Origin: Acidobacteriota bacterium
Lineage (GTDB): Bacteria; Acidobacteriota; Terriglobia; Terriglobales; Acidobacteriaceae
Length of the DNA: 33,332 bases
NCBI GenBank assembly: GCA_028872955.1
Contig: JAGWNX010000042.1
Span: 1-33,332 of the forward strand
Direction of reading: 5' to 3'
The stretch's first letter is position 1. Each line of letters opens with the position of its first letter. The notes under the pieces are model-generated. The model did no database searches and was not told where the DNA came from. It saw nothing but the letters and a program-made list of their open reading frames with translations. A program made the position numbers and the translations under genes. Shown piece after piece: positions 20,403-33,332 of this stretch.

Positions 20403-22376
20403 TTAGCTACCCAACGGCGCGGGCGACTGGGTCGCCTGCTTGGAGTAGCGAATCGCTCCAGCCTTCTGATACTTCTGCGTCAGGTCGTCCACGTAGATGC
20501 GGAAGACCTCATCCCGCTGCGCGCTCAGCAACTGCTCGCGGGTCTGTGCGAAGTTCTTTGCGATGTCTTCTGGAGTCGGCTCCTGCTTCTGGGTCAGGCT
20601 TACCACCGCACCCACACGGCCCGTGTTGATCGGACCGGAGATTGCGCCCACCGCCAGGTTGAAGACGACTGCCGCCGGTCCGGTGAGAGCACCAAGCTCC
20701 GGCACCTGCCCGTCGCGGCCAACCAGATCGCTGGACTTGACCGGAATCTTCAGCTCGGCAGCCGCCTTCTTCAGGTCGTTCAGCACCTTGGCACGGTCAT
20801 CCAGCTTGGCCAGCTGTGCGGTCAAAAGCTGTGGCAGCTGCTGGTCGCGGTAGTCCTCCAGCAGGTGCGACTTGTAGTCCGCAAAGTCCGGCATGTGCGC
20901 GGGCTTGATGTCTACCACCTGGTAGATGGCAAAGCCATCGCCCGTGGTGACGAACGCGGGAGCTGCGCCCTTGCTGACGCCAAAGGCCTGAGTCAGCAGC
21001 GCGGAGCCGTCGGCCAGCCCGGCGATCACGCCATCCTTGGCCACATAGTCCGTGGTCACGGCATGCAGATTGTGCGCTGCCGCAGTCTTGTCGATGCCCT
21101 GCTGCGTGGCCTGGGCCACCAGCTGCGCGGCAAAGGCCTGCTCCGCGGCGCCAGCCTTCTGCTGCTCCAGCACCGGAACAATCTCCGGCTTCACCTCCGC
21201 CAGCGGCTGCATGTGCGCAGTCTTCTTATCCTCAACCTGCAGAATGTGGTATCCAAACTGGGTCTTCACCACATCGGAGGTCTGCCCGGGGTTCAGGCTG
21301 AACGCCACCTTATCGAACTCCGGCACCGTCTTGCCGCGATCAAGCCACCCCAGCTCGCCACCCTGGCCCTTGCTGCCTGGGTCATCCGAGTTCTTGCTGG
21401 CCAGATCAGCAAAGTTGGCACCGCCCTTGATCTGCTTCAGCAGGTCCTCCGCCTTGGCCTTGGCCGCTGCGTCGGTCTTGGCGTCGGCACCCGCCGGCAC
21501 CTGGATGAGGATGTGCCGAACCTTGACCTGCTCCTTCACCTGGAACTGATCCTGGTGCTGGTTGTAGTACGCCTGCAACTCAGCGTCCGACACCTGCGGC
21601 CTGCCACCGGGCAAGTTCGATGCGTCAAACGACGCATACTCAATCTTGCGCGTCTCCGGCACGGCATTGGCGTAGCGCGCGGCATTCTGCTTAAAGAAGG
21701 CCTGCAGTTCGTCGTCGCTTGGGTTGATGGTCTTGCGGATGTCGTCGCCGGAGACCACGGCGTAGTCAAACTTTACCTTGGTGCCCTGGATGCGATAGGC
21801 ATCGCGCACGGCATTGTCTGAGACGGTCACGCCGCCGGTGATGAGCGCCTGCAGACGGTTCAGCTCCATGTCGCCCTTCACCTGGCTCTCAAAGTCGGCA
21901 CGCGAGGTCTGGAAGGCGGACTGCACGAAGTTGATGTAGGCGTCGTCACCGACATAGGTGCCATTAGGAAAGAGGTACTGCGCAAATGGGCCGGTCTGCA
22001 GCTCGTGCAGCAGGTCCGCATCGCTTACCTGCAGCCCAAGGCGATCCGCCTCCTGCTTCAGAATGGCGCGCTGCACCAGCATCATGCCGGCGCGCTGCGT
22101 CATATAGGGCAGCAGGAAGTCCGGCAGTCGCTGCTGCTGGAGCTGACGCTGCGCCCACTGGTTGACCTCTGCCGCCAGCACAGGCGTGCCACCTGCGGAG
22201 AAGCGGCCCAGCAGGCCCGGCTCCCGCACTGTGGCGTACACACTGGCATCGCCAGTAGCCGAGTTGTCAAAGATGCCCGGGACGAGCGTGATGACCATCG
22301 TGACCACTGCGGCACCGATGATGATGGCGAAAAGTACCTTAGTAAAGCGATTGTTCTGCTGCAGAATGCGGATCAT
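20403..22376 (-). CDS. PpiD/SurA-like peptidyl-prolyl isomerase, membrane-anchored
   Basis: A 657-residue periplasmic folding factor. The N-terminus MIRILQQNNRFTKVLFAIII leads into a single membrane anchor (about residues 12-34), followed by a SurA-N-like chaperone region (about 80-260). A parvulin domain follows (about 270-380, KVRHILIQVPAG, ADLASKNSDDPGSKGQGGELGWLDRG, PGQTSDVVKTQFGYHILQVED). A second parvulin-like half and a C-terminal segment complete a PpiD-like layout. The parvulin domain keeps the usual glycine-rich core and the terminal FGYHIL motif, so isomerase activity is plausible. PpiD-type proteins assist newly exported proteins at the Sec translocon. I use the ATG at 22374-22376; an upstream GTG would add a 33-residue basic extension unlike the family. 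There is a weak AAAGG site about 12 bases upstream. Confidence 0.88.
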   Translation of the reverse strand: MIRILQQNNRFTKVLFAIIIGAAVVTMVITLVPGIFDNSATGDASVYATVREPGLLGRFSAGGTPVLAAEVNQWAQRQLQQQRLPDFLLPYMTQRAGMMLVQRAILKQEADRLGLQVSDADLLHELQTGPFAQYLFPNGTYVGDDAYINFVQSAFQTSRADFESQVKGDMELNRLQALITGGVTVSDNAVRDAYRIQGTKVKFDYAVVSGDDIRKTINPSDDELQAFFKQNAARYANAVPETRKIEYASFDASNLPGGRPQVSDAELQAYYNQHQDQFQVKEQVKVRHILIQVPAGADAKTDAAAKAKAEDLLKQIKGGANFADLASKNSDDPGSKGQGGELGWLDRGKTVPEFDKVAFSLNPGQTSDVVKTQFGYHILQVEDKKTAHMQPLAEVKPEIVPVLEQQKAGAAEQAFAAQLVAQATQQGIDKTAAAHNLHAVTTDYVAKDGVIAGLADGSALLTQAFGVSKGAAPAFVTTGDGFAIYQVVDIKPAHMPDFADYKSHLLEDYRDQQLPQLLTAQLAKLDDRAKVLNDLKKAAAELKIPVKSSDLVGRDGQVPELGALTGPAAVVFNLAVGAISGPINTGRVGAVVSLTQKQEPTPEDIAKNFAQTREQLLSAQRDEVFRIYVDDLTQKYQKAGAIRYSKQATQSPAPLGS

Positions 22377-22532
22377 GCTGAACGTAAGACCTTTGTGGCG
22401 CGGAGTAGCGTCATGCCGACGTTGACCGCTTGCCCGGAGTTTTTTGCGCGGCGTGGCTGACGGTTCAAAATGCACCAGCAGGCCATTGGCACGGGCAAGC
22501 CAACAGTATAAATGACGCTCCGCCCAAATTCA

Positions 22533-22564
22533 CATCGGCTGGCGGATTGATCCGTCAGCCGATG
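22533..22564. other. 14-bp stem hairpin between ppiD and the BON-domain gene
   Basis: An inverted repeat CATCGGCTGGCGGA-TTGA-TCCGTCAGCCGATG has 14-bp arms with one imperfect position (a G-U wobble in plus-strand RNA, an A-C mismatch in minus-strand RNA) and a 4-nt loop. It lies 30 bp past the stop of the BON gene and could end that transcript, although only TGAATTTG follows it on that strand. It could also be an operator or an mRNA element of the ppiD promoter region. Confidence 0.45.
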
Positions 22565-22593
22565 CGTGCTGCCCTTGCCTGCCCTGCCCCTGC

Positions 22594-23736
22594 CTAATAC
22601 GGCGCAGGATAAAAGACAGGGTGTGGATAGAAGTATGGAGGCGGTGGCTGGCGGCGCTGCATGGGCTGGCCAGCCGGTGCAACGCTATGAGCCAGCCGAT
22701 CCATCTCCGCCTGCGAGACCGTTACGACGGGAGCGGGCTGGGTCAGGTGGAAGGTCAGAATCGCCTCAGCCGGGACATAAGTGTTGTTGCGCGAGGTAGC
22801 TGCCGAGGCTCCCACACCTGCTGCCCCGCCGGCCACGGCACCGATCGCGGCACCCGGTCCTCCGCCGGCGATGGCACCGATGATGGCGCCCATCGCACCC
22901 AGGCCCACCGCACTGCTCACCGTCTGGCCAGACTTGTCTGCACTCTCGTGCGTCCACTGGTCTGAGACCACCGGGTACACCTGGCCGCCCAGGGTCACCT
23001 GCGTCAGTTGCAGGGCGAGGTGCGCTCGGCCACTGATAGCCCCTGAACTCTTCACATCCACCACAGTTCCCTGCACGGCAGCACCGCGCGGAATCGCAAC
23101 CGCGCCGTTGGCAACCACATCGTTGAGCACGATGCCGTCAAAGAGGGTGCCCGGCTGGCCGTGCCGGGTATCGATTCCTTCGTTGATCCGCACCCGAACC
23201 AGGGCTCCGCTGGGGATGGTGACCGCCATGCCAGCCTGTTGACCTGCAGCGTAATTGCCCGGCGCAGATCGCTCAATCGTGGCCGGGCGCGGGGCTGTGG
23301 CCTGCTGCGGCACGGGCTGGGGCTGCGCTGCCGACTGCGACGGGGCCAGTGGAGGAACCGAAAGCGGCTGCGGCGACTGCGATCCCGTGCCTGCCGGCTG
23401 CGCTGCCGGTGCGGGCGGGTCAGTCGCCAGCGTCAACTCGTCAACCACCTTTTGAACCCCCTGCGCCCGGGAGGCCAGCGTCTCTGCCAGCACCCGCGTG
23501 GGCTCATCCTTGACTACGCCAGTCAGCGTGACTGTGCCATAGACGGTCGTGGTTGTAATTCTCTGATCTGCAAGTTGCTGATTGCTGGCCAGCGCCTTCA
23601 ACACATTGGCCTCAACCTGGGCATCGGGGGTTGAGGGAACGGCAGAGCTTGCCTGAGCAAGCAGGGCGGCAGGGCTCACAAGTGCAGTGAGGGTAAGGGT
23701 CCGGATGAGGCTCCGGGTTGTCACGGATACGTGCAT
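22594..23736 (-). CDS. exported BON-domain, glycine-zipper protein
   Basis: A 380-residue envelope protein. A signal peptide (TRSLIRTLTLTALVSPAALLAQA) precedes a BON domain (about 37-105, VEANVLKALASNQQLADQRI, VYGTVTLTGVVKDEPTRVLAE). A Pro/Gln/Ala-rich linker (about 108-155) follows, then a beta-rich region resembling TrbI/conjugal-type surface proteins (IPSGALVRVRINEGIDTRHG, FDGIVLNDVV, IPRGAAVQGTVVDV). Next comes a glycine zipper (about 290-330, GLGAMGAIIGAIAGGGPGAAIGAVAGG) and a Pro/Tyr-rich tail (PPPPYFYPHPVFYPAPY). BON domains bind phospholipid surfaces, and glycine zippers pack in membranes, so an outer-membrane or periplasmic association is likely. The ATG has a perfect GGAGGAG site five bases upstream. 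Its precise role is unknown. Confidence 0.85.
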   Translation of the reverse strand: MHVSVTTRSLIRTLTLTALVSPAALLAQASSAVPSTPDAQVEANVLKALASNQQLADQRITTTTVYGTVTLTGVVKDEPTRVLAETLASRAQGVQKVVDELTLATDPPAPAAQPAGTGSQSPQPLSVPPLAPSQSAAQPQPVPQQATAPRPATIERSAPGNYAAGQQAGMAVTIPSGALVRVRINEGIDTRHGQPGTLFDGIVLNDVVANGAVAIPRGAAVQGTVVDVKSSGAISGRAHLALQLTQVTLGGQVYPVVSDQWTHESADKSGQTVSSAVGLGAMGAIIGAIAGGGPGAAIGAVAGGAAGVGASAATSRNNTYVPAEAILTFHLTQPAPVVTVSQAEMDRLAHSVAPAGQPMQRRQPPPPYFYPHPVFYPAPY

Positions 23737-23899
23737 GTACACTCCTCCGAGCGCCTTGCCTGCAATTGATTCCACGCAGGCTTTGACTCTCACTCGATAC
23801 AGACTCAACTTCACGGTAAAAGTTACTGCAACCGACTCGATGCCATGCGAAAACTTCCCTCATCCCCGGCGGCCTGGCGAGAGCCACCAGTGCGGCCAT

Positions 23900-23928
23900 T
23901 TGACCACAACCTCGAACAGGTCTAATAT
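23900..23928 (+). promoter_or_regulatory. sigma70-type promoter of tRNA-fMet
   Basis: A -35 TTGACC (23900-23905) and -10 TAATAT (23923-23928) are separated by exactly 17 bp. The first base of the tRNA is only seven bases past the -10 element, so the 5' leader would be nearly absent. Confidence 0.75.
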
Positions 23929-23934
23929 CAAAAG

Positions 23935-24014
<80 letters not shown>

Positions 24015-24024
24015 AGCGAAAACG

Positions 24025-24086
24025 CCAACCCGGAATAACCCGGTGTAAGAGCAGCCACATTTGCTCCGCCGGGTTGGGTTGTTTTT
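24025..24086 (+). terminator. terminator downstream of tRNA-fMet, with repeated AACCCGG boxes
   Basis: A 9-bp outer stem CCAACCCGG (24025-24033) with CCGGGTTGG (24069-24077) encloses a nested GAGCA/TGCTC stem (24049-24053 with 24062-24066). A T-rich tract follows (24079-24086). A second AACCCGG at 24037-24043 could pair with the same downstream arm. The structure fits an intrinsic terminator for the tRNA. The repeated boxes between an att site and int could alternatively be recombinase arm sites. Confidence 0.65.
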
Positions 24087-24105
24087 GGGCACCTTTTCGC
24101 ATGAG

Positions 24106-25428
24106 TTATGCCTTCCTAAATAGCTTGCTTACGACAGCCGAATTAGCTTCCCGCTTTGACTCCATCAGCGCGTTGCCATAGACGTTCATCGTGGTCGAGA
24201 TTTGGGCGTGCCGCATGAGCTTCTGCTGCACTCCCATCGGTGCTCCGGTGTCATCCAGCCAGGACCTGTAGGTATGCCGGAAGGTGTGCCATCCGATGCT
24301 GCCGTATTTGCCGGCAGCATCCCACCGCTCGTCATGCAGCGGCAGGCGCTTCCCGTTCGGAACGGGAAAATCGGTCTTGCACCACTCTCCTGCGACTGCC
24401 CCGCAGTTGGGACAATCCACGAGACAGCAACCGGCAGGACGGATGTAGTCCTGTCCAATCGGCGAGGCGTGGAAGTGTCGTCCCGTCATGGGACTGACGA
24501 AGAGCAGGTCCGACTCTACAATCCCGGCACCCTCGTCCCCCAGCTTGGCTAGAGCCTCGCGCTCGGCTTCACGAATGAAGTCGAGCAGAACGGAAGCCAG
24601 ATCCGGGTCGAGGGGCAATTCGTCTTCTGAGTATTCCGTTTTCACCAGCTTCACCCGACCATGCACGACGGCTCGCACGATTTGCATACTCAGCTTCTCG
24701 AAGTGGATGTCTGGCTTTTCGACTGCCAGAACCTCCTCGACGCGAAGGCCCGAGCACTGCGCGAGAAGGACCATAGTGCGGTAAGGTTGCGGGATCAATG
24801 GAAGCATCAAAAAGAACTGCTCCACGGTGAGGATCACCGGACGTTTCCGACGTTTGCTGATGCCCTTGATTTCGACCAGCTCCATCGGATTCCGCTGCCA
24901 TTCGACCATCTCCCACAGCATGGCTTTCTCATACAAGCGATGTATGACAGCCTTGATGTGTCCTTTGGTCTTGGGTGCAGCTTCGAGTCCCCGGAGCCAC
25001 TCCTGTACGTGCATCGGCTTCACGCGAGCGATACGATGGGTTCCCCATTTCGCACGCACACGCTTGATGACGCTCAGGTAGGAGCTGGCGGTCGAATAGC
25101 TCAACTCGCCTACGTTGTCGCAGGATTCCCCCGGTCGGACCTTCTTGATTTCAAGCAGGCGCTCTTCCCGTATGAACCGATCCAGCAACGCATCGAAGGT
25201 GGGCTCTTGGACGGCTAACGTCGGGTTGTCAGAGTTAAGTTGAAGCACAAAGGATTCCAAGTGCCGCTCGACCGCGGTCTGCGTTGGAAACTGCTCTGTG
25301 CTGAAATACATGGACTTTTCCTTGCCGGTCTGGGGGTCCGCGTACCGATACTCCCAGGCCGACTTGTTGTTGGCTCGCGGCACTCGCCGCAGATAGCCAC
25401 GTTGGTAACGTTGCCGTGTGTGCTTCAA
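24106..25428 (-). CDS. tyrosine-type site-specific recombinase (integrase) with cysteine-rich insertion
   Basis: A 440-residue integrase. The N-terminal part (about 1-70) is an arm-binding-like region, followed by a SAM-like core-binding domain (about 75-175) and the catalytic domain (about 195-435). Catalytic residues are all present: Arg229 (QCSGLRVEEVL), likely Lys263 (LVKTEYSEDELPL), His381 and Arg384 (GWHTFRHTYRSW), His407 (KLMRHAQISTT) and nucleophile Tyr417 (NVYGNA). Between the second strand region and the HxxR box is an insertion (about 330-368) with Cys334, Cys335, Cys339, Cys342, Cys350 and His365, arranged as CPNC-x7-C with a distal LHDERW. It resembles a small zinc-binding module. 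The TTG start has AGGAG eight bases upstream and overlaps the preceding gene's stop as TTGA. Its 3' end faces the tRNA. Confidence 0.93.
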   Translation of the reverse strand: MKHTRQRYQRGYLRRVPRANNKSAWEYRYADPQTGKEKSMYFSTEQFPTQTAVERHLESFVLQLNSDNPTLAVQEPTFDALLDRFIREERLLEIKKVRPGESCDNVGELSYSTASSYLSVIKRVRAKWGTHRIARVKPMHVQEWLRGLEAAPKTKGHIKAVIHRLYEKAMLWEMVEWQRNPMELVEIKGISKRRKRPVILTVEQFFLMLPLIPQPYRTMVLLAQCSGLRVEEVLAVEKPDIHFEKLSMQIVRAVVHGRVKLVKTEYSEDELPLDPDLASVLLDFIREAEREALAKLGDEGAGIVESDLLFVSPMTGRHFHASPIGQDYIRPAGCCLVDCPNCGAVAGEWCKTDFPVPNGKRLPLHDERWDAAGKYGSIGWHTFRHTYRSWLDDTGAPMGVQQKLMRHAQISTTMNVYGNALMESKREANSAVVSKLFRKA

Positions 25429-25688
25429 GGATGTTGCTCCTGTCTAGTCACAGCGGCCCGATCAGTTGTATTCGATTTTAGGCCCTTCTCCAGCCATGAA
25501 TTCAAGGAAGAAAGTCGGAATCTCCAGCGTTTTCCTACCTTGAAGGCGGGTACTTCATGCTGCCGCGCTTTGCCTTCCAGCGTCTTCCAGTGCATCCCCA
25601 AAACGGAAGCAGCCTCATGGAGATCAAGCAGGGGCTCGAACGAAGAATTGGAGAGAATGCGCGGCTGTGGCTTCGTGGCTGAGAGCAT
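25425..25688 (-). CDS. excisionase-like MerR/HTH_17-type DNA-binding protein
   Basis: An 87-residue DNA-binding protein. The winged-helix excisionase fold is visible as LLDLHEAASVLGMHWKTLEGKARQHEVPAFKVGKRWRFRLSSLNSWLE (residues about 20-67). This is the usual helix-turn-helix followed by a wing and a C-terminal helix. I selected the ATG at 25686-25688 with GGAAGG four bases upstream; a TTG 31 codons earlier would add an unstructured extension. Its TGA stop overlaps the integrase TTG start, so the two are translationally coupled. This suggests it controls integrase activity or direction (Xis-like), or represses the pair. Role is inferred from fold and linkage. Confidence 0.82.
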   Translation of the reverse strand: MLSATKPQPRILSNSSFEPLLDLHEAASVLGMHWKTLEGKARQHEVPAFKVGKRWRFRLSSLNSWLEKGLKSNTTDRAAVTRQEQHP

Positions 25689-25973
25689 GGAACCTTCCGT
25701 TGGGGCGGCCCCGATGTCGATCCAGGGCTGAGATAACGTACAGTGCTCCGACGATTGCCCAAGACCGTTCGCTGTGTCCAATTCATAACGACGACCTACT
25801 TATCAACAGGAGGAATAAGTTCTTTTCCGTATACGTTTTTCGAGCTGACTGCATCTAATTCCACCATTGCTTCAGCGGTGGGACGTTTGCGCTCATCCGT
25901 TTCCTTCTACACCGCATTACGCACGGCTGCGCTCGTCCCATCCCATTTCCTCGGAGTTCATGGGAGCGCCCGT

Positions 25974-26918
25974 ATGCTGCGAAACGAAACAAAACTGATG
26001 GAATCGGCCATTGCTTTGGCTGAAGAGCTTCATTATCAACGGGCAGCTCGGAAGCTCCGTATAAGTCAACCGATGCTGACCAAAAACATCCAAGATCTCG
26101 AATCGATTCTGGGTAGTCCACTCTTCGTTCGCAACCGCAGTAGCCGCAAGAATGTCACCCTGAACGATGCCGGACGAGCTTACGTCCAGCAAGCCAGACT
26201 GTCGTTGCTTTATGGAGAGAGAGCGGTTCAGGCAGCAAAAGCTGTCATGCAAAACGTTGACGTGCCGTTTCATGTCGGGCGCTCACCATACACTGATCCG
26301 TTCTTGACTTCGACTCTTCTTTCTATAAGCCTCCCGCTGTATCCCAAGCTGCGGATCGAATTGGCAAGTCAATACTCGATTGATCTTGTCCACGATCTCC
26401 TTGATGGCGTCTTGTCCTTAGTAATTGCGAACGAACCTCCCGAATCGGCGCTACTCACACAGCTTCTAATTGCTGAGTCCCCGTTTTATATCGCGATGGC
26501 TCGTAGAGACGAACTTGCGTGCAAGCCATCGGTTTCGATGGCTGACCTTAATAATCGTAAGTGGATACTGTTTGAACGGAAATTGCATTCTTCGTTGTAC
26601 GATTCAATACTCGACACTGCAGAACGGCTTCATGTGAAACCAGCAAGTGTTCAGCATGTAACGGCTCCCGAAGAGGCGTTTCCTTTTGTCGCTGACAACT
26701 CGGCTGTTGCGTTCTTGGTAAAAGCTGGAGCACTGCTCATGGCCCGTAATGGGGTGACCATTCGGCCACTCGCAGAACCAGAACTACGGCTTCGTACGTA
26801 CCTGGTTTCTCGTGCTGACGACGATTCTAAGGTTGCGAGCGAACTCGTGCGGTCATTCATGCGTAAGATTTCAGAAGTCAGCGCCTACCGCCAGCTCACA
26901 CTTCCGATATCTGTTTGA
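25974..26918 (+). CDS. LysR-type transcriptional regulator
   Basis: A 314-residue regulator. The N-terminal winged helix-turn-helix (SAIALAEELHYQRAARKLRISQPMLTKNIQDLESILGSPLFVRN) is canonical LysR. It is followed by a linker helix and a type 2 periplasmic-binding-protein effector domain (PFHVGRSPYTDPFLTSTLL, then LVIANEPPESALL). The ATG at 25974 has GGGAG seven bases upstream; an upstream in-frame extension of 77 codons lacks LysR similarity. Codon use is noticeably less GC-rich than in the core genes to the left. It is separated from the divergent integrase-xis pair by about 285 bp with no other gene. It converges on the zinc-ribbon gene with a 4-bp gap. Its target is unknown and could be within the element. 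Confidence 0.9.
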   Translation: MLRNETKLMESAIALAEELHYQRAARKLRISQPMLTKNIQDLESILGSPLFVRNRSSRKNVTLNDAGRAYVQQARLSLLYGERAVQAAKAVMQNVDVPFHVGRSPYTDPFLTSTLLSISLPLYPKLRIELASQYSIDLVHDLLDGVLSLVIANEPPESALLTQLLIAESPFYIAMARRDELACKPSVSMADLNNRKWILFERKLHSSLYDSILDTAERLHVKPASVQHVTAPEEAFPFVADNSAVAFLVKAGALLMARNGVTIRPLAEPELRLRTYLVSRADDDSKVASELVRSFMRKISEVSAYRQLTLPISV

Positions 26919-26922
26919 CTCC

Positions 26923-27132
26923 CTAATTCTCTTTGCTTCCAAGCTGCGGGCTGCTTCCACCGACAATCTGGATTTCAATTTTCCCCGCCCATTCACACTG
27001 GGGGCATAACACTATTCCTGTCGTGATCGCCCTCATATCGATGTCTGCGAGATTGATGACGTACTGGCAATTGGGGCAAACATGAGCGCTTTCCCAATGT
27101 TCTGTAAGATTGGTGCTGTTGTTTGCGCTCAT
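26923..27132 (-). CDS. small zinc-ribbon protein
   Basis: A short protein of 69 residues (ATG at 27130-27132) or 88 residues (TTG at 27187-27189). Two CPxC knuckles, VCPNCQYVIN and LCPQCEWAG, are separated by about 22 residues, and the rest is acidic or polar. The pattern is a typical zinc ribbon with no enzymatic domain. The longer start overlaps the stop codon of the VWA-like gene as TTGA, which would be coupling, but it lacks a clear ribosome-binding site; the ATG also has only a weak site. It is the last gene of the leftward run of four. Whether it binds nucleic acid or protein cannot be told from sequence. Confidence 0.65.
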   Translation of the reverse strand: MSANNSTNLTEHWESAHVCPNCQYVINLADIDMRAITTGIVLCPQCEWAGKIEIQIVGGSSPQLGSKEN

Positions 27133-27185
27133 ACAATTCTGCTCTGGACTGCGAGGCTGGACACGCTGATGGGGCGAAGTGCAAC

Positions 27186-29297
27186 TCAACGCTGGATCGC
27201 AATAGGAATTTGTCGAAAGACGACTTGGCGGCGAGTTGGCGAGAATAGACCTACCTGACAGGTGTACTGACCAGGTGGAAGGTCCGGAACGGTAACGTCG
27301 ATCAGAAATTCGTCCGTTGTCATTCCGTGACGTGATCTCTGTTGAGGCTGCTGAAATCCACTTGAGAAGACCTGCCCCTGTCGGTCAACAATAGTCACCG
27401 CCGCGACCAGTTGATCTGTATCGTTCGGAGGCTGATACGCTTGGAGATAAACATAGATCGGTTTATGGGAAGAGAAGACTCGGTTGACGCTGGGGACGAG
27501 CTTGTCTCGACCGTCAAACAAAGGGTTATCGCGGTCTCCTGAACCCTTTTTTGAACTAAAGAGCAGATACTTCACCGCGGTCTTCTGATTCCCAATGACA
27601 ACGGAACTGATTGGAATCTCCAGATTTCGCGATAGATTGGGAATCTGAAATTGGGTTTGATAGGTTCCGATCCGTCCGGAGACGCTATCCCTCGCCAAAA
27701 ACTTCAGCGAGTATTTTCCCGGGAGCAGCGTCAGTCCAGCTTGATAGCTGATGGGGTGCATTGCCAGTTCGCTCGCTAACGGGCCGGAGAGAACGATGTC
27801 TGCCTTATCACGAAGATTGGCGACCGTGACATGGAACTCATCTTTCACTTCGGCAATAAAGTCGATGACTGTACGATCCGCGCCCTTTCGTTTCGCCAAA
27901 GCAAGTTCGCTTCCAGGGATCTTTACGGCAAGGGGCACGAAGTACTCGGCTTGATTGATGCGAAAGTAGTTCAATTCCAATGCGATCGGAATATCCGTCT
28001 CGGGATCGTTGAGCGCCAACGCTTCTTCAAGCTGTCTTTCCTTGTCTGCTGCCGTGAACTCCTTAAACTCCTTCTTTGCGTAGTAGCCGGGTGAATAATC
28101 GAGGTTCGCTGACATATGGTTCGCGAGGGAGATATTTACTCGTCTGTAATGGCCATCAGCCGCCGCGTTGGAGGTGTAGTAACCGATGATGTAGTAGCTG
28201 GACACGGATTGTTGTGCCCGCACAATCCCGCGCGAGAGGTCGTTGTAGTTCAGTAATGCTTTGCCACCGGTATCTGCGGCCAATGTCCGGAACGTATCCT
28301 GCGAACGGTCAAAATTCGTCGTGACTGCAGTGGCCGCTGCTCCCGTATACATCGCAAGTGTGCCCGGCGAGGCTGCCGTCGCGTCTCCGATAGGAGCCGC
28401 GCCCAACAGTCCGCGTGTGTCAATTGGCCAGATCGCTACGTCCGCGCGTACCGCTGAGTTTATGGTCGACTGAAGTTGTGCCTGATTATCGAGGCCGTTC
28501 AATCTCATTCCACTGGAGAAGTACAGCAGGCTCTTTTTCTGTCGGATATTGCCGAACCTTGTGATGACATTTTGCAACGCAGCGAGTTGGCGATCCGAGT
28601 TGAACAGGTTGAACTCTGTGTCGTCCTGACCGAACGGAGCGCCAGTATCCGCAGCACTCGCGTCGTGCGCGTTGCCACTCAGCCCTTGCCCCTCCCCAAC
28701 AGTAAGCGAGTGGATCGTAGCTAGAAGAGCTGCGTGGTCGCTGGTAAAGTCTCGTTCGTCTCGGATGCCCCCACCGCTGTAGGTCAAGATTGAAACGAGA
28801 TCATCGGGAGTCATCTTTTGCTCGATAAAAGTCTGTGCCGATGACAAGGCACGCAGTTGATCGCTCATCGGCATGGAGGTCATATCGAAGTACAGAATGA
28901 GCAATCGGTGATCGTTATAACGATTTCCAGTTCGGGGCGGCGGGGTTCCGGGCACCGTTTTTACGCCCTCGCCATTGAGAGGCGTCCCGGGGAGGTCGAC
29001 GTTAGGCTTTCCCAACTTTTGCAAATCACAGATTCGAATCCGTTGCACCTTACCGTCTTCCGTGAGCAAGAAGTCGCTGGCTGTGAGATTTTCCACCAAA
29101 TCACCTTTCTTATCTCTCACGGTCACAGTTCGCAGCACGAGTTGTGTGCTTACGGAAAGTGTGAACGGCTTCGCGGGGTCCGGTGCGACCTGACTGTCTT
29201 GACCGTTTGCATTGGGGAGTTTTTGCTGTGCATGCATCCCTGCTGCGAACAGCAACACCGAAAAGCTAAATAACGCCGTGCCTGTTCTCTTAAACAT
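27186..29297 (-). CDS. exported VWA-like protein, acidobacterial TIGR03436 type
   Basis: A 703-residue secreted protein. The signal peptide (about 1-23, ending GMHAQ) is followed by a region with TLSVSTQLVLRTVTVRDKKGDLVENLTASDFLLTEDGK, the conserved opening of the VWA-like domain family found mainly in Acidobacteriota. The VWA domain (about 130-390) includes LLILYFDMTSMPMSD, FIEQKMTPDDLVSILTYSGG, and SLLYFSSGMRLNG with VRADVAIWPIDTRGL. The metal site (MIDAS) reads D138-M-T140-S-M142 rather than DxSxS, so it may not bind metal in the usual way. About 310 residues of beta-rich sequence follow. The ATG has TAAGG eight bases upstream. It begins 10 bp after the beta-barrel gene. A role in surface adhesion or protein assembly is inferred, not shown. 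Confidence 0.88.
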   Translation of the reverse strand: MFKRTGTALFSFSVLLFAAGMHAQQKLPNANGQDSQVAPDPAKPFTLSVSTQLVLRTVTVRDKKGDLVENLTASDFLLTEDGKVQRIRICDLQKLGKPNVDLPGTPLNGEGVKTVPGTPPPRTGNRYNDHRLLILYFDMTSMPMSDQLRALSSAQTFIEQKMTPDDLVSILTYSGGGIRDERDFTSDHAALLATIHSLTVGEGQGLSGNAHDASAADTGAPFGQDDTEFNLFNSDRQLAALQNVITRFGNIRQKKSLLYFSSGMRLNGLDNQAQLQSTINSAVRADVAIWPIDTRGLLGAAPIGDATAASPGTLAMYTGAAATAVTTNFDRSQDTFRTLAADTGGKALLNYNDLSRGIVRAQQSVSSYYIIGYYTSNAAADGHYRRVNISLANHMSANLDYSPGYYAKKEFKEFTAADKERQLEEALALNDPETDIPIALELNYFRINQAEYFVPLAVKIPGSELALAKRKGADRTVIDFIAEVKDEFHVTVANLRDKADIVLSGPLASELAMHPISYQAGLTLLPGKYSLKFLARDSVSGRIGTYQTQFQIPNLSRNLEIPISSVVIGNQKTAVKYLLFSSKKGSGDRDNPLFDGRDKLVPSVNRVFSSHKPIYVYLQAYQPPNDTDQLVAAVTIVDRQGQVFSSGFQQPQQRSRHGMTTDEFLIDVTVPDLPPGQYTCQVGLFSPTRRQVVFRQIPIAIQR

Positions 29298-29307
29298 TTG
29301 ATTGGCC

Positions 29308-32286
29308 TTAGAAATGGAGCCGCAGAGTCATCTGCATACTTCTCATTGGGTTGGCTGCTACTGGCAGACCAAACTGCGAACTTGTTGTCGTGGAGTTCCA
29401 ACTCGTAACGTTGACTTTATTGAGCATGTTCGTACTGTCCAATCGAAGCTCCAGATTCTTCTGGTCGACGAGACGAAAGGTCCGTCCCAATGATGAGTCG
29501 AGACCAAACTGCGAAGGCCCGGTGATCGAGTTCCTCCGCGCGTTGCCCCAGTGACCAATCGAAGGAGCTAGAAAGGCTGCTGGATTAAGGAACCGGCCTG
29601 GGGGAGCGTCGGTGACGGATAGCCCGGAATAATCAGGACGGAGTGTTCCAGTCACTCCCGTACCCTGTACCGTAGCAAAGTAGATTGGAGTTTCTGGAAG
29701 GCCGGTTCCCGCGGTGATTTGCGAGGCAATGGTCCAATCTCGCAAAAGTTTGCCACCCCAACCTTGCAGTGTCGTTATTCCTGCCTTGCCCATGCCGCTT
29801 GTGTATTGGAGCGAAACGCTAAGGGAATGCCGCTGGTCAAAGTTTGATAGCGACCGTTCTGCGGCGAGGTTTCTCCAGTCCTGAGCGATTACTTGTGCCG
29901 ATTGGCCAAGAGATCCTCCGAGAGCTGCGTCGTCAATAGCTTTCGCATACGTATATTGCACCGATGCGGCAAAGCCGCGATGGAGATGGCGCCGCAGTTG
30001 GACTTGCCCCGCATCCCTTGAAGAGGCCCCGCCAGAAGAGAGGTAGATAAAGCCTCTTGGACAAGAGGGACAGGGATCGGCTGCACCGCTCGGATAGGTA
30101 TTTGGAAGAAATGCCTGCTGTGCATGGCTTCCTCTGATCCCTAGATAACTCAAGACGAGCGTAGAAGTCCAAGGTAGATCCCGCTGAACCGAGAGATTGA
30201 AATTTTGAGCGTAGCCTACCCGGAGATTCGGATCGACTGCGTAGGTCGGAAACTGGAGAGTTGATGGCGGATTGAAACCATTCGCGACGGTGAGAGGGAT
30301 AGCCGGACTATTTTGAACGCTAAAGCTCTTTGAGATTGGTGCTTGCTGTGCTAGCGCAGAGGCTATTGGGAGGTAGACCGAAGTGTTGTAGTACAAGCCA
30401 TAGCCTGCCCTCAGTAGCCAGGAGGAGTCTGCGATAGGGCGCCATGCAAGTCCGATACGGGGTTCGAAGCCGCTTCTGTCAGGTTTTATCAAAGAAGCCG
30501 GGTAAACCTGCCCCGTCACGCCTCCGGTTTGAACGCTGGCTAACACGGGGCTTGCTGCTGAGAAATTTGGGGAAACGTCAAGATTTACGAGACGCTGTTT
30601 CTTTTCGTCAATTGGAGAGCCATAATCCCAACGCACTCCTACGTTCAACGTCAGGCCGGCAGCGACACGAAAATCATCGGCAAGGTATGCGTCGTATACG
30701 TTCTGGCGCAAATATTTATCTGCGTTTCCGTAAGCAAGTGTGCTGGTATCAGGAATTCCGATCAGGAAATCGGCAAAGTCATTACCAGTAGCTGCCCCGG
30801 TGAAGTTGAATGTGCCACGCCCATTCTGCTGGTTGAGCAGATTGAACTGTTGGCGGCGAAAATCGGCACCGACCCTGATGTTGTGCCGATAATGGTTCCA
30901 TAGAGCGGCATAAGAAATACCGCTCGTCTGGTTTCGTGTGAATGAGAACTGGCCATCTGTGAGGCTGGAGGTTCCTCCTGAAAAGAAGAGGCTAGGCGGA
31001 CCCCAATCTGACGGATCTCGATCATTACCCTGGATACCGGCTGCTCCCGAAACGTCGATCTTATCGGCAAAGTATGGAACCACACGCGATGCAAGGCGGT
31101 TGTACTGAAAGCCATAGGTCATCGACAATCGGGGTGTATAGAGATGTTGCCAATTCACGGAAGCATTCAAACCCAGGCTGGATATTCCGTCCATAAATCC
31201 GAATAGATTCACACTCGTGGAACGTGTGCTCTGACCAGCGAACACACCGTACAAGAGATCTTTGGCTGAGAGGTTCTTAGTGAGCCTGGACTGCCAGCTA
31301 TCAATGTTGATCGATGAGGTCGTGACCTGCTGATAGTTGTACTGTGATGCCCCCGAGACATTTGGCAAAGGATAGAGGTTCAATAACGCCTTTGCCTGTG
31401 CATTTACCGGAACGGTGTTCCCAGGATAAGGGACATGCGTTGATGGGTCGCTCGCCACGGGTTCGTTGCTTCCTGAAAGGTCACCCGTTCTCTCGGTAGA
31501 AGTGGGGACGATGCCCGCTTGTACCGTCGCGACATGGTCACGCACCGCCTGATAGTTGAGCGCGAACGTCGGTCCGTTCTGCCACAATAAATGGGGAATT
31601 CTTAGCGGACCGCCTAGACTCGCAATCGCGGTTATGCGACTGTAGACGGGTTTCTGAGAAGTGACACCTGACAGCGAGAACGGGCGGGCATCGAAGGCGG
31701 AATTACCGATGATGACTCCAGCGTTTCCCGAATAGAGCGCGCGGATATCCTGACGGTTGTTGCCGGTTGCCCTAGACTGCCCGAAGATAGTTGTTGCGGC
31801 ATTGTTGTTGGTACCGTTGATAATGAGACTGTCGGTTGGCCCAAGAGGGGCATTGGTATCGTCGTACGCCGCTCCAAGAGGTGCAACATTCAACGGTTGC
31901 CTCGACAAAGCTGCGACGGCTGTGGCTGTATTCGGATCCCGTACCATCCCTGGCTTGCTAACCATCGACGCATAAGGCAGCATCACGAGGTCCCACGTGA
32001 CCAGACCGCTAGCGGCAGAGAAGACAAGGTCTCTTTCAGCAGTTTCGAAACCGACCGTCTCGACTCTTAGGTGCCACGGAGCATCCGTCACTCCTACAAG
32101 CAGGTACAGTCCATTGGCATCAGTCACTGCACGAACGGTGCTCTGACCGTTTGTTGCGATAACAACGACCCCTGGTACCGGCTTCCCCTGATAGCGAACC
32201 AAGCCTTGTTGATCTGCTGCAAACGCGGACAGTACGATGCACGGAAACAATACACTGAGAAGGGTTTTGAGACAAAGATATCGCAC
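29308..32286 (-). CDS. TonB-dependent-type outer-membrane protein with carboxypeptidase-regulatory domain
   Basis: A 992-residue outer-membrane protein. A signal peptide (about 1-23, FPCIVLSAFAAD) precedes a carboxypeptidase-regulatory-like Ig fold (about 26-105, GLVRYQGKPVPGVVVIATNGQ, TDANGLYLLVGV). A plug-like segment and a large beta-barrel with alternating aromatic strands follow. The C-terminus ends RSMQMTLRLHF, with a terminal Phe recognised by the BAM machinery. This architecture (Oar-like/TonB-dependent receptor) is expanded in Acidobacteriota. It has no clear TonB box, so energy coupling is uncertain. The GTG start has AAGGGAG about 12 bases upstream. The M56 gene ends 49 bp upstream, and the VWA-like gene follows after 10 bp, which supports one transcription unit. 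The cargo could be a carbohydrate, peptide or metal chelate. Confidence 0.88.
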   Translation of the reverse strand: MRYLCLKTLLSVLFPCIVLSAFAADQQGLVRYQGKPVPGVVVIATNGQSTVRAVTDANGLYLLVGVTDAPWHLRVETVGFETAERDLVFSAASGLVTWDLVMLPYASMVSKPGMVRDPNTATAVAALSRQPLNVAPLGAAYDDTNAPLGPTDSLIINGTNNNAATTIFGQSRATGNNRQDIRALYSGNAGVIIGNSAFDARPFSLSGVTSQKPVYSRITAIASLGGPLRIPHLLWQNGPTFALNYQAVRDHVATVQAGIVPTSTERTGDLSGSNEPVASDPSTHVPYPGNTVPVNAQAKALLNLYPLPNVSGASQYNYQQVTTSSINIDSWQSRLTKNLSAKDLLYGVFAGQSTRSTSVNLFGFMDGISSLGLNASVNWQHLYTPRLSMTYGFQYNRLASRVVPYFADKIDVSGAAGIQGNDRDPSDWGPPSLFFSGGTSSLTDGQFSFTRNQTSGISYAALWNHYRHNIRVGADFRRQQFNLLNQQNGRGTFNFTGAATGNDFADFLIGIPDTSTLAYGNADKYLRQNVYDAYLADDFRVAAGLTLNVGVRWDYGSPIDEKKQRLVNLDVSPNFSAASPVLASVQTGGVTGQVYPASLIKPDRSGFEPRIGLAWRPIADSSWLLRAGYGLYYNTSVYLPIASALAQQAPISKSFSVQNSPAIPLTVANGFNPPSTLQFPTYAVDPNLRVGYAQNFNLSVQRDLPWTSTLVLSYLGIRGSHAQQAFLPNTYPSGAADPCPSCPRGFIYLSSGGASSRDAGQVQLRRHLHRGFAASVQYTYAKAIDDAALGGSLGQSAQVIAQDWRNLAAERSLSNFDQRHSLSVSLQYTSGMGKAGITTLQGWGGKLLRDWTIASQITAGTGLPETPIYFATVQGTGVTGTLRPDYSGLSVTDAPPGRFLNPAAFLAPSIGHWGNARRNSITGPSQFGLDSSLGRTFRLVDQKNLELRLDSTNMLNKVNVTSWNSTTTSSQFGLPVAANPMRSMQMTLRLHF

Positions 32287-32335
32287 AGGAATGCAAAGCT
32301 CCCTTGAAGCGTCTATTCAGATTGCTATTGAACGA

Positions 32336-33332
32336 TTAGTTTTCGACTGGTCGATTAGCGCTGTCGATCGTCAACAGATCGGCTGGAGCTTTCCTGGCCT
32401 GGAGTTTCAGCCCAAGCTGCTGCTGAACCGCCGTAAAGAGCGATGTACCTGTAGGGTCAGCCAACGCTTGTGAGTTGCTGGTGGCGTCGGGCACCCCCAA
32501 CGCCTGACTGGTATCTGGAGTCCACTCCAACCTGAATTTATAGTTGTTCTTTAATCCCGTCATATCGAAGACGGGGCGACCGGATTGCTCACCCAAGAAG
32601 CGGGCCAGCGTCTCCATATTTGCGCTCGTGGCTATGACTTCCCCACGTCCCCCATGGATATCGTTTGGGACATTTGAACCCACGGCTACCTCCATCTTAG
32701 GTCCGCTCTTATCGATGATGAGCGCGTAGATGGGAACGTCCTTCGATTGGGTATGGAACACGAGCTTGAAACGATCCGCGAGGAGACTTTGCAACCGAAG
32801 TCTGACCTGCTCCTGAAATACACGGCGCTCGTCCGTAGTCATGTTGTGAGGGTCCCCGCCAAATGGCGTATCTGGCTTACCCTCTATGTCGAATCGTTGC
32901 GTATCCATCCAAGCCGGTTCGCCCGTGATCTGGTCATCGCCGACGTCATAGGCGATTTTGATCAGAAAGCGGAGTGTCGCATGGTTGATCACAAGCCGGC
33001 CGCCAGGTGCAAACAAAACAGAAAGCTTTGTTTGGGGGGCGCTCGGCTTGATCGTTGCTATGTCGAATTTCGGTCGCGCTGCTTCATGAGTAATCTCGGC
33101 CCGCGCAGACTGTCCCGTCATCACGCCTATGACAAACGGTGTGAGGACTGTACATATGCCCAGTAGCACAAGGGTGTATTTGTAGAGGCCTGTCAACCGT
33201 TTGCCGATTCGCCGAGAGACTATCATGTCGATTCGCTGGCGTAGGTCACCGCCGCCGATGCTTGACACATAGTGAAGAGGCAGTGCTTTGCAGTAGGCGC
33301 AGATCGTGAGGATGCTCTCCGCATAGACTCTG
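32336..33332 (-). CDS. M56/BlaR1-type metallopeptidase fused to TIGR03435 domain (5' end beyond window)
   Basis: The reading frame stays open to the window's right edge, so only the C-terminal 331 or so residues are seen. The edge sequence, RVYAESILTICAYCKALPLH followed by YVSSIGGGDLRQRIDMIVSRR, is the conserved end of the M56 (BlaR1/MecR1) peptidase domain. A membrane helix follows (YTLVLLGICTVLTPFVIGVM), then a TIGR03435-type extracytoplasmic domain (FDIATIKPSAP, GGRLVINHATLRFLIKIAYDV, LRLQSLLADRFKLVFHTQSKDVPIYALII, FDMTGLKNNYKFRLEWTPD). This fusion is typical of acidobacterial genomes. An internal GTG at 33266-33268 could be mistaken for a start, but the upstream frame matches M56. The HExxH zinc motif would be outside the window. 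A sensor-protease role, probably with a BlaI-like repressor encoded to the right, is inference. Confidence 0.85.
   Translation of the reverse strand, partial: RVYAESILTICAYCKALPLHYVSSIGGGDLRQRIDMIVSRRIGKRLTGLYKYTLVLLGICTVLTPFVIGVMTGQSARAEITHEAARPKFDIATIKPSAPQTKLSVLFAPGGRLVINHATLRFLIKIAYDVGDDQITGEPAWMDTQRFDIEGKPDTPFGGDPHNMTTDERRVFQEQVRLRLQSLLADRFKLVFHTQSKDVPIYALIIDKSGPKMEVAVGSNVPNDIHGGRGEVIATSANMETLARFLGEQSGRPVFDMTGLKNNYKFRLEWTPDTSQALGVPDATSNSQALADPTGTSLFTAVQQQLGLKLQARKAPADLLTIDSANRPVEN

Follow-up and report, generated by a model that had tools for sequence, protein, structure and literature searches.

Does a run of four same-strand genes at one end of an acidobacterial contig encode a cell-envelope system, and which of these genes belong to it? 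The window, that is, the whole stretch of DNA that was analyzed (33,332 nucleotides), is the entire contig C89 (JAGWNX010000042.1), and the M56 gene is therefore truncated at the contig end. All four reading frames of the original prediction were found where it had placed them, on the minus strand. They encode the C-terminal part of an M56 (BlaR1-like) sensor protease with a TIGR03435/DUF3738 domain (positions 32,336 to 33,331; 331 aa, running off the contig), a plug-less TonB-receptor-like outer-membrane barrel with an N-terminal CarboxypepD_reg domain (29,308 to 32,286; 992 aa), a secreted VWA protein of the TIGR03436 family (27,186 to 29,297; 703 aa), and a small zinc ribbon (26,923 to 27,189; 88 aa from a TTG start), which scored under every Pfam cut-off. 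The gaps of 10 bp between the VWA and barrel genes and of 49 bp between the barrel and TIGR03435 genes were confirmed, while the 53 bp given for the zinc ribbon reflect an internal ATG start; read from the TTG, the frame overlaps the VWA stop by 4 bp. Separate promoters or terminators inside the run had been named as evidence against a common unit, and promoter-like (4 versus 4.1) and terminator-like (5 versus 6.7) sites were found there at the level of shuffled sequence. Genes were called as longest open reading frames, and some starts of the VWA, BlaI, and M56 genes lie too early.

A lack of conserved co-occurrence had likewise been named as counterevidence, and we found that the run recurs in related genomes. 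The window-type clade, defined by its VWA protein, was present in 85 of 398 genomes of the family, with a patchy distribution over 13 genera (our genome tallies of 41/60, 8/60, and 85/398 each count the window's own genome). Among the strong VWA homologs examined in a 60-genome sample, 33 of 35 had a barrel gene directly upstream, and the other two lie at contig edges; one further strong match out of the 36, G038:C52, contains internal stops and was left out. Within the window's clade, the barrel gene was directly upstream of the VWA gene in 91 of 93 copies. Nine of these 91 end at a contig edge above the barrel gene, and 78 of the remaining 82 informative copies had a TIGR03435 gene directly upstream of the barrel gene (median gap in the clade, 17.5 bp), compared to a background of 1 in 220 same-strand neighbors of unlabelled genes. 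The window, L046, and L166 to L169 served to build the profiles for TIGR03435, M56, and BlaI, and these six copies are not independent; without them, the count was 72 of 76. The exceptions were L228, L264, L290, and L297, the last of which has a split barrel gene. In the core version of the barrel-VWA pair, TIGR03435 was found in 0 of 33 cases. L170, a locus from another family that has an upstream TIGR03435 gene and falls inside the clade by tree, was excluded from both the 93 copies and the core count. Because they are conserved in relatives, the TIGR03435, barrel, and VWA genes are not a chance row of reading frames. The predicted four-gene combination thus held for these three, which are conserved far beyond chance, and failed for the zinc ribbon. 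Recurrence in many related species suggests an inducible cell-envelope system that has not been described so far.

Comparison of their sequences in trees shows joint descent of the barrel and the VWA protein: the window clade was monophyletic in both trees, and the clades match. Their pairwise distances were also correlated (r of 0.97 over 117 loci and 0.85 inside the clade), a relation confounded by shared species history that we did not use as proof.

The zinc ribbon was tried as a member of the system and rejected. It lies behind the VWA gene in only 2 of the 93 clade copies, the window and L268, and is thus probably not part of the system. A homolog was present in 8 of 60 genomes, the window's own included; in the other seven it was on a different contig than the VWA match, or there was no VWA match. 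The LysR-type regulator (25,743 to 26,918, plus strand; HTH_1 and LysR_substrate above cut-off) is a neighbor outside the conserved set, and a LysR match near the barrel-VWA pair was seen only in L046 among 34 other loci.

Further along lies an integration module, comprising an excisionase-type HTH_17 protein (25,425 to 25,781, minus strand; HTH_17, 40.8 bits; TIGR01764, 33.4 bits) and a tyrosine integrase into which a phage zinc-finger domain is inserted (24,106 to 25,428, minus strand; PF00589, 38.3 bits; PF24623, 33.4 bits). The integrase stands beside the 3' end of a tRNA-Met (CAT) identified by ARAGORN (23,935 to 24,011, plus strand), a recurrent integration site, and GC content falls from ~63% to ~53% in the region, in agreement with the tRNA-linked, lower-GC context noted previously. 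Each of 12 same-genus genomes contained a match to this tRNA; the left-hand gene adjoins it in 11 of them (in G398, the two are ~105 kb apart), and in 8 of the 12 loci the tRNA is followed by an integrase relative or a piece of one. A search of the 207-contig assembly for a second copy of the tRNA end (distal att), allowing up to 2 mismatches, returned one copy only; the contig ends inside the run. The suggestion that the set moves as a unit is therefore only partly borne out: matching barrel and VWA clades, patchy distribution, and the position of the window copy behind a tRNA and an integrase favor it, while the failure to find a distal att copy and the location of the set away from this tRNA in the four same-genus genomes with both places known (G105, G117, G418, and G439) do not.

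M56 protease-sensors of the BlaR1 kind control penicillin resistance in other bacteria. The sensor fragment of the window scored 221.6 bits with TIGR03435 (cut-off, 40) and 176.6 bits with DUF3738. Neither Pfam nor NCBIfam reported an M56 domain in the window. The N-terminal ~85 residues of this fragment aligned to residues ~255 to 358 of 10 full M56 proteins of relatives and to residues 410 to 482 of an eleventh with an overlong frame (E values of 6e-16 to 1e-11 for the eleven listed). Of the M56 sensor originally predicted, the window thus holds TIGR03435 and an M56 tail of ~85 residues; the M56 domain itself is not seen in this gene, which is cut by the contig end.

Across the clade, 32 of 93 copies carry M56 as a fusion with TIGR03435. 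This count led us to reject M56 as a constant member; the constant part is TIGR03435. A BlaI reading frame was found in 31 of these 32 loci, directly upstream in 28 according to filtered gene calls, and blaI usually overlaps the M56 gene by 4 bp. In the same-genus locus L166, BlaI is followed by M56-DUF3738, barrel, and VWA, the distances between successive genes being -4, 4, and -1 bp. PF05569 (M56) was detected in 3/3 and PF03965 (BlaI/MecI family) in 2/2 scanned proteins of relatives, and HEXXH was present in 30 of 33 M56-TIGR03435 proteins. At the sensor position of the three proteins scanned we found only DUF3738 and no penicillin-binding domain. In 15 of 78 runs, the sensor domain also occurs in free proteins encoded by that run. 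Another 46 of the 78 contained unfused TIGR03435 only, with no adjacent M56 or BlaI gene, and regulation there would therefore act in trans or be different.

We then searched for BlaI-type operators (TACTACAnnTGTAGTA-type consensus). Sites with at most one mismatch occurred 11 times in 2.06 Mb and 0 times in three shuffles, which preserved base composition only; 10 lie at the start of blaI/M56 and 1 lies 37 bp before the barrel gene of L291. Sites with two mismatches (8 versus 5 in three shuffles) were partly above shuffle level, and those with three (16 versus 86) were below it. De novo dyads in blaI upstream regions included CTACA-NN-TGTAG (5/29) and CTAC-N4-GTAG (11/29). In L280, the BlaI gene directly precedes the VWA gene. 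No operator with up to three mismatches was found in the right third of the window, whose M56 start, BlaI gene, and operator lie off the contig. As far as sequence can tell, the arrangement of fusion, BlaI gene, and operators is the one predicted by the proposal that the M56 protease, sensing a signal by way of TIGR03435, governs the barrel and VWA genes.

The window barrel scored 511 bits with PF25183 (cut-off, 30) and 36.7 bits with CarboxypepD_reg (cut-off, 32.3). In its AlphaFold2 model, the barrel extends from ~186 to 992, with 22 strands by our own count from the DSSP list, and residues 103 to 182 have a pLDDT below 50. The best PDB matches were TonB-dependent receptors, with Z scores up to 24.9 (PirA, 4.0 Å over 429 residues). 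Among 30 barrels scanned at an E value of at most 0.01, PF25183 was found in 30 and PF00593 in 21, and the PF07715 plug was found in none. Because PF07715 matched only 6 of 19 controls, the real plug test was a home-made profile built from 19 paralogs of the window's own genome, which recovered 19/19 of them in leave-one-out controls. This profile matched 0 of the 30 barrels (5 of which lack the N terminus or start after it) and 0 of 118 paired barrels (best E value, 0.16). The barrel is thus TonB-type by fold, as claimed, but has no plug. Where both patterns matched (44 of 82 clade members), a short motif precedes the barrel by 31 to 32 residues; a regular expression written for a conserved motif in front of the barrel matched no more than 27 of 82. 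Together, these sequence comparisons show that plug-less TonB-type barrels form a stable lineage whose partner is constant.

This partner, the VWA protein, scored 215.5 bits with TIGR03436 in the window (cut-off, 81.25) and has a signal peptide by inspection. Its model (pLDDT, 75.5) contains a VWA domain, with a Z score of about 16 for this fold, followed by C-terminal beta-sandwich domains. The canonical MIDAS motif is DxSxS. Here it is degenerate, the fifth position being Met or Leu in 112 of 127 sequences and Ser in 2, with a pattern that permitted only M, L, or S at that position and left 13 of 127 unmatched.

Judged by gene order, domain make-up, operators, and plug loss as read from the sequences, the run probably represents an inducible envelope operon of the BlaR1/BlaI type with a non-penicillin sensor, controlling a plug-less barrel and its VWA partner. 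In relatives, the full form comprises an operator, blaI, an M56-DUF3738 protease, often at least one secreted DUF3738 protein, the barrel, and the secreted VWA protein. From this arrangement we infer induction, repressor cleavage, a ligand, direct barrel-VWA binding, and transport with its direction. The extracytoplasmic DUF3738 domain of the protease would sense a ligand or an envelope state, upon which the protease would cleave BlaI, and barrel, VWA, and secreted DUF3738 proteins would be made. The BlaR1 sensor has the same fold as class-D beta-lactamase; by analogy, secreted DUF3738 may handle the same ligand as the sensor. At the outer membrane, the plug-less barrel could form a wide conduit or an anchor, and the co-produced VWA protein might gate it, pass through it, or be displayed on it. 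A more specific version, which we put forward tentatively, is that of a natural plug-less barrel gated in trans: the VWA or secreted DUF3738 protein would fill or cap the pore of a protein-scale conduit, while the BlaR1-like protease would use its own DUF3738 domain to follow the same ligand, or the state of the assembly, and would free the operon from BlaI.

Other readings of the barrel-VWA pair have to be weighed against this operon. It might be an uptake pair of the SusC/SusD kind, in which a large substrate is bound by the VWA or a secreted DUF3738 protein and then brought in through the barrel with the help of TonB, the short pre-barrel segment replacing the plug. CarboxypepD_reg followed by a TonB-receptor barrel is the make-up of SusC-type proteins, BT1762-1763 aligned with a Z score of 22.3, the pre-barrel motif would supply the replacing segment, and inducible control suits a nutrient response. 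However, TonB opens such receptors by plug movement (PMC11658791), and the plug profile was absent from all 118 paired barrels; nor did Pfam scans of the VWA and TIGR03435 partners reveal a SusD family, so that we regard uptake as rather unlikely. We are also doubtful, and a shade more so, of a structural, non-transporting pair in which the barrel holds the VWA protein at the cell surface to promote adhesion or build a matrix. The VWA and beta-sandwich domains of the model would fit, and the biofilm scaffold RbmA took the top eight Foldseek rows for the whole VWA model. These rows show little beyond Ig-like domains, because their TM-scores to the query were 0.12 to 0.13 at ~12 Å rmsd, and a TonB-receptor-type barrel would be unusual as an anchor.

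Two further readings deny the operon its unity. BlaI and M56 might mainly control TIGR03435 genes, with the barrel-VWA pair as an unrelated hitch-hiker; M56 is indeed absent from 46 of 78 runs, and the core pair lives without TIGR03435. Yet the adjacency in 78 of 82 copies across 13 genera with its short median gap, the operator before the L291 barrel gene, and the BlaI gene before the L280 VWA gene all argue otherwise, making this very unlikely. Least credible, and scarcely worth retaining, is the view that the genes came together by chance as cargo of an integrative island. The adjacent integrase and tRNA, the lower GC, and the zinc ribbon would fit such a mix, but the VWA clade occurs in 85 of the 398 family genomes with the same neighbors in the copies read, the order of the three larger genes is conserved, and four same-genus genomes have them elsewhere than at this tRNA.

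The favored operon resembles the beta-lactam sensing systems BlaR1/BlaI and MecR1/MecI in its M56 protease with a C-terminal sensor, its BlaI-family repressor gene, its TACTACAnnTGTAGTA-type operators, and, for 15 of the 78 runs, the occurrence of the sensor domain in free proteins as well. It differs in that the sensor is DUF3738/TIGR03435 rather than a class-D beta-lactamase-like domain, and, as output, a plug-less barrel and a VWA protein take the place of beta-lactamase or PBP2a. Oar of Myxococcus xanthus likewise joins a CarboxypepD_reg N terminus to a TonB-receptor-type barrel and, as its part in PopC secretion indicates, such barrels can serve protein export (PMC6434023). Unlike Oar-type receptors, the barrels described here lack the defining plug and have a constant VWA neighbor. 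An engineered plug-less FpvA barrel was complemented by a plug supplied in trans as a soluble protein, showing that a separate protein can serve a TonB-type barrel that has no plug of its own (PMC10994204), whereas plug loss is natural in the paired barrels examined here.

The window proteins are far above the cut-offs of the TIGR03435 paralog family and the acidobacterial VWA family TIGR03436, and the NCBIfam lines for these families mention neither an operon nor pairing with a barrel nor a link to M56/BlaI. In the open-access literature, we found no paper naming TIGR03435, TIGR03436, or DUF3738, none on VWFA-related proteins or BlaR1/M56 in Acidobacteriota, and none on Bacteroidetes BlaR1/BlaI homologs with a sensor domain; the passages covered of the one genome paper that matched von Willebrand, TonB, and Acidobacteri contained nothing on the pair. 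Our data give a testable context to TIGR03435/DUF3738, TIGR03436, and PF25183 barrels, whose Pfam and NCBIfam entries name no function, and suggest re-use of a BlaR1/BlaI-type switch with a different sensor beside an envelope output. If the barrel were gated in trans or exported protein, it would represent an unrecognized outer-membrane route in common soil bacteria, and gating in trans would make it a new module for transport or secretion that carries its own feedback sensor.

DUF3738 was also considered as an STN-like signaling domain of the FecA/FecR type and rejected: profile comparison gave probabilities of 0.4% with Escherichia coli FecA and 0.1% with FecR, a weak but negative result given single-sequence templates, and 42 scanned domains had no Pfam STN match up to an E value of 10. 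Searches for solved relatives returned a single match for DUF3738 (E value, 0.34) and none for the VWA protein up to an E value of 0.1. A lipobox as a rule in the VWA proteins was rejected as well (9 of 127, with uncertain starts). A peptide-pattern search yielded no close relatives among GTDB contigs, and 7 of 16 loci from other families (L179 to L185) were low-scoring VWA homologs without an adjoining barrel gene. The barrel of L076, missed by the automatic call, was revealed by translated BLAST, and the one-contig genomes G295, G372, and G515 carry the complete blaI run.

Family scans of the minus-strand ORFs at the right end of the window confirmed an open TIGR03435/DUF3738 fragment (32336-33331), a PF25183 barrel (29308-32286) whose N terminus carries a CarboxypepD_reg domain and a TIGR03436 VWA protein (27186-29297), whereas the small zinc-ribbon ORF (26923-27189) remained under every Pfam cutoff. 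We found homologues of the VWA protein with E ≤ 1e-20 in 41 of 60 same-family genomes, its own included, with 36 strong matches (E ≤ 1e-93). Thirty-five strong homologues were examined (34 loci of relatives and the window): in 33 of them the VWA gene was immediately preceded by a same-strand barrel gene, and the other two begin at a contig edge. Elsewhere in the phylum, 16 loci outside this family were read, and nine of them (L170 to L178) also have the pair, with a barrel-VWA gap of 0 to 23 bp in L171 to L178; the seven loci without it were low scoring. A DsbD-type protein (DsbD_N and DsbD_TM) follows the VWA gene in one close relative (L044, 2-1687). The zinc-ribbon ORF, counted as a member of the set in the original prediction, overlaps the VWA end in a second case (L268, 12106-12336), and its membership is not supported.

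The pair occurs in two versions, and the window's genome carries both. The core version, which has no TIGR03435 gene, lies on contig C138, where the neighboring gene clusters are common to a same-genus genome (G034). Its barrel gene is preceded by a secreted DUF5666 protein in 19 of 33 informative loci (e.g., L062 and L068), the family being named for one only of these 19 proteins. The VWA tree and the barrel tree each place the window's version in a clade of its own, which takes up 83 of the 117 tips (counting L170) and holds no intruders (FastTree supports of 0.85 and 0.89). A profile search detected this clade in 85 of 398 family genomes, spread over 13 of 79 genera, and 93 copies were analyzed in all.

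In this clade, the barrel gene is directly upstream of the VWA gene in 91 of the 93 copies. Of the two exceptions, L296 meets a contig end, and in L280 (3995-6519) the VWA gene is split over two ORFs and directly follows a BlaI gene, with neither an M56 nor a barrel gene intervening. Nine of the 91 copies end at a contig edge above the barrel; among the 82 informative ones, 78 have a same-strand TIGR03435 gene as the barrel's immediate upstream neighbor. The exceptions comprise L228, L264 (another barrel), L290 (TIGR03435 present but on the opposite strand) and L297 (a barrel gene in two ORFs, with TIGR03435 behind). Without the six copies from which the profiles were built, the count was 72 of 76. 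As a background, TIGR03435 directly preceded an unlabeled gene of at least 150 aa in 1 of 220 same-strand pairs from the same loci, and a barrel gene of any kind in 77 of 83. The TIGR03435-barrel gap has a median of 17.5 bp and does not exceed 60 bp in 62 of the 78 runs, and in L286 to L288 four tandem TIGR03435 genes, 2 to 5 bp apart, are followed by 33 bp to the barrel. The conserved co-occurrence that had been predicted was thus found: the TIGR03435-barrel-VWA combination is real and conserved, and it is not described in the open-access papers searched. TIGR03435 itself has many paralogues and no named function; one genome of 4.2 Mb in 9 contigs (G031) has 18 matches at E ≤ 1e-20.

Of the 78 runs, 17 have TIGR03435 solely as a fusion with M56, 15 have both fused and free forms, and 46 have the free form alone. 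All three fused proteins scanned carried Peptidase_M56 and DUF3738 in a single chain (Pfam), and HEXXH was present in 30 of 33 M56-TIGR03435 proteins. The M56 sensor originally predicted for the run is borne out in part. The first 85 residues of the window's fragment align with residues about 255 to 358 of 10 of the 11 listed full-length M56-TIGR03435 proteins, the eleventh being an overlong frame, and we infer from this that an M56 protease gene crosses the contig end; the M56 domain itself was not found inside the window by family scans.

A BlaI ORF was present in 31 of 32 loci with M56-TIGR03435, and both upstream genes scanned contained Penicillinase_R (Pfam). A de novo dyad search in 29 blaI upstream regions returned CTAC-N4-GTAG in 11 and CTACA-N2-TGTAG in 5; in one shuffled set, no dyad of the same lengths exceeded counts of 2 and 1, respectively. 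We take this dyad to be the core of the BlaI/MecI operator. Scanning the 2.06 Mb of all loci with TACTACAnnTGTAGTA yielded 11 sites with at most one mismatch and none in three base shuffles. Ten of these sit where blaI begins or where an M56 frame overlying a blaI frame begins. The remaining one, around 6888 in L291 with one mismatch, is 37 bp upstream of a barrel gene with no blaI beside it, and this predicted operator suggests control in trans. Sites with two mismatches numbered 8, versus 5 in the three shuffles together, and sites with three mismatches 16 versus 86, and therefore only the closest sites carry weight. The same-genus locus L166 runs from operator through blaI, M56-DUF3738 and barrel to VWA, with junctions of -4, 4 and -1 bp. 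Positions 22001-33332 of the window hold no TACTACAnnTGTAGTA site with three or fewer mismatches, and this arrangement is not visible there because the contig ends first.

According to PMC7593790, BlaR1 is an M56 protease whose sensor domain responds to an extracellular ligand, which leads to degradation of BlaI and expression of the target genes; the BlaR1 sensor domain is likened there to class D beta-lactamases. Here, DUF3738 occupies the sensor position instead, and since the same runs also encode DUF3738 as free proteins, the resemblance of sensor to effector is repeated. The simplest model would be an inducible response in which DUF3738 recognizes a ligand or an envelope state, BlaI is then removed, and the plug-less barrel and the VWA protein are made together. 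The original proposal, an M56 protease sensing an envelope signal through TIGR03435 and controlling barrel and VWA protein, is supported in its core by the conserved combination and the accompanying BlaI ORFs.

The barrel lacks a plug. The window's genome has 29 PF25183 matches, from which 21 frames were extracted; leaving out the two VWA partners gave 19 paralogues. In leave-one-out tests, a profile of their plug segment recovered all 19 (E ≤ 6.2e-10). Among VWA-paired barrels it matched none, neither in a set of 30 (best E, 0.3), of which five lack the N terminus or start after it, nor in all 118 longer than 850 aa (best E, 0.16). Pfam Plug was found in 6 of the 19 control paralogues versus 0 of 30 paired barrels. 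Where the plug would be, the core version has a glycine-rich stretch, with a median of 24 glycines in the richest 60 residues (33 proteins) and up to 40 in core-type loci; the median in the window's version is 9 (82 proteins). In an AlphaFold2 model, the barrel begins at about residue 186 and has 22 strands by our count, with residues 103 to 182 under a pLDDT of 50. The known structures matching this model are TonB-dependent receptors (e.g., PirA, Z of 24.9, 4.0 Å over 429 residues), and the SusC-type BT1762-1763 aligns with residues 184 to 992. By fold and family, the barrel derives from a TonB-dependent receptor. It is not one by the definition in PMC6434023, which asks for both barrel and plug, because the plug is absent. 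The N-terminal architecture resembles that of Myxococcus xanthus Oar, a barrel that can be needed for protein secretion (PMC6434023); Oar, however, keeps its own plug and TonB box. Since Oar can be needed for secretion, and since a plug supplied in trans can serve plug-less FpvA (PMC10994204), the boldest reading of the barrel would be a trans-gated conduit.

Its VWA partner in the window has a signal peptide, as judged by inspection. The VWA domain matched several VWA domains with Z of about 16 (about 170 residues at about 3 Å), and the MIDAS is degenerate, with Met or Leu at the fifth position in 112 of 127. No solved relative was found by sequence up to an E of 0.1; the C-terminal beta-strands resemble Ig-like domains with low Foldseek scores.

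The window is the complete contig C89 of a 3.48-Mb assembly in 207 contigs, and its protein families point to an acidobacterial source. GC content is 61 to 68% left of about 24 kb and about 51 to 57% to the right, and the drop starts at tRNA-Met(CAT) (23935-24011), confirming the predicted tRNA-linked, lower-GC region. The tRNA is followed by a tyrosine integrase (24106-25428), an excisionase-type HTH protein and a LysR regulator, after which come the four minus-strand ORFs. Directly behind tRNA-Met, 8 of 12 same-genus loci (L299 to L310) have an integrase or integrase fragment of this family, 43 to 93% identical over the best piece of each (93% over 276 residues in L299); none is present in the other four within the bases covered. 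This tRNA is a recurrent integration hotspot in the genus. The claim that the set moves as a unit is only partly supported: the window copy sits at this hotspot, but a second copy of the tRNA end was not found, and in the four same-genus relatives with both places known the operon is away from tRNA-Met (more than 1 Mb on the same contig in G117 and G439, about 64 kb in G418, another contig in G105). The window copy may therefore ride on the integrated element or merely abut it. The integrase of the window carries an inserted phage zinc finger (PF24623, residues 329-372) preceding the HxxR box, and a similar cysteine-rich insert was seen by eye in L302.
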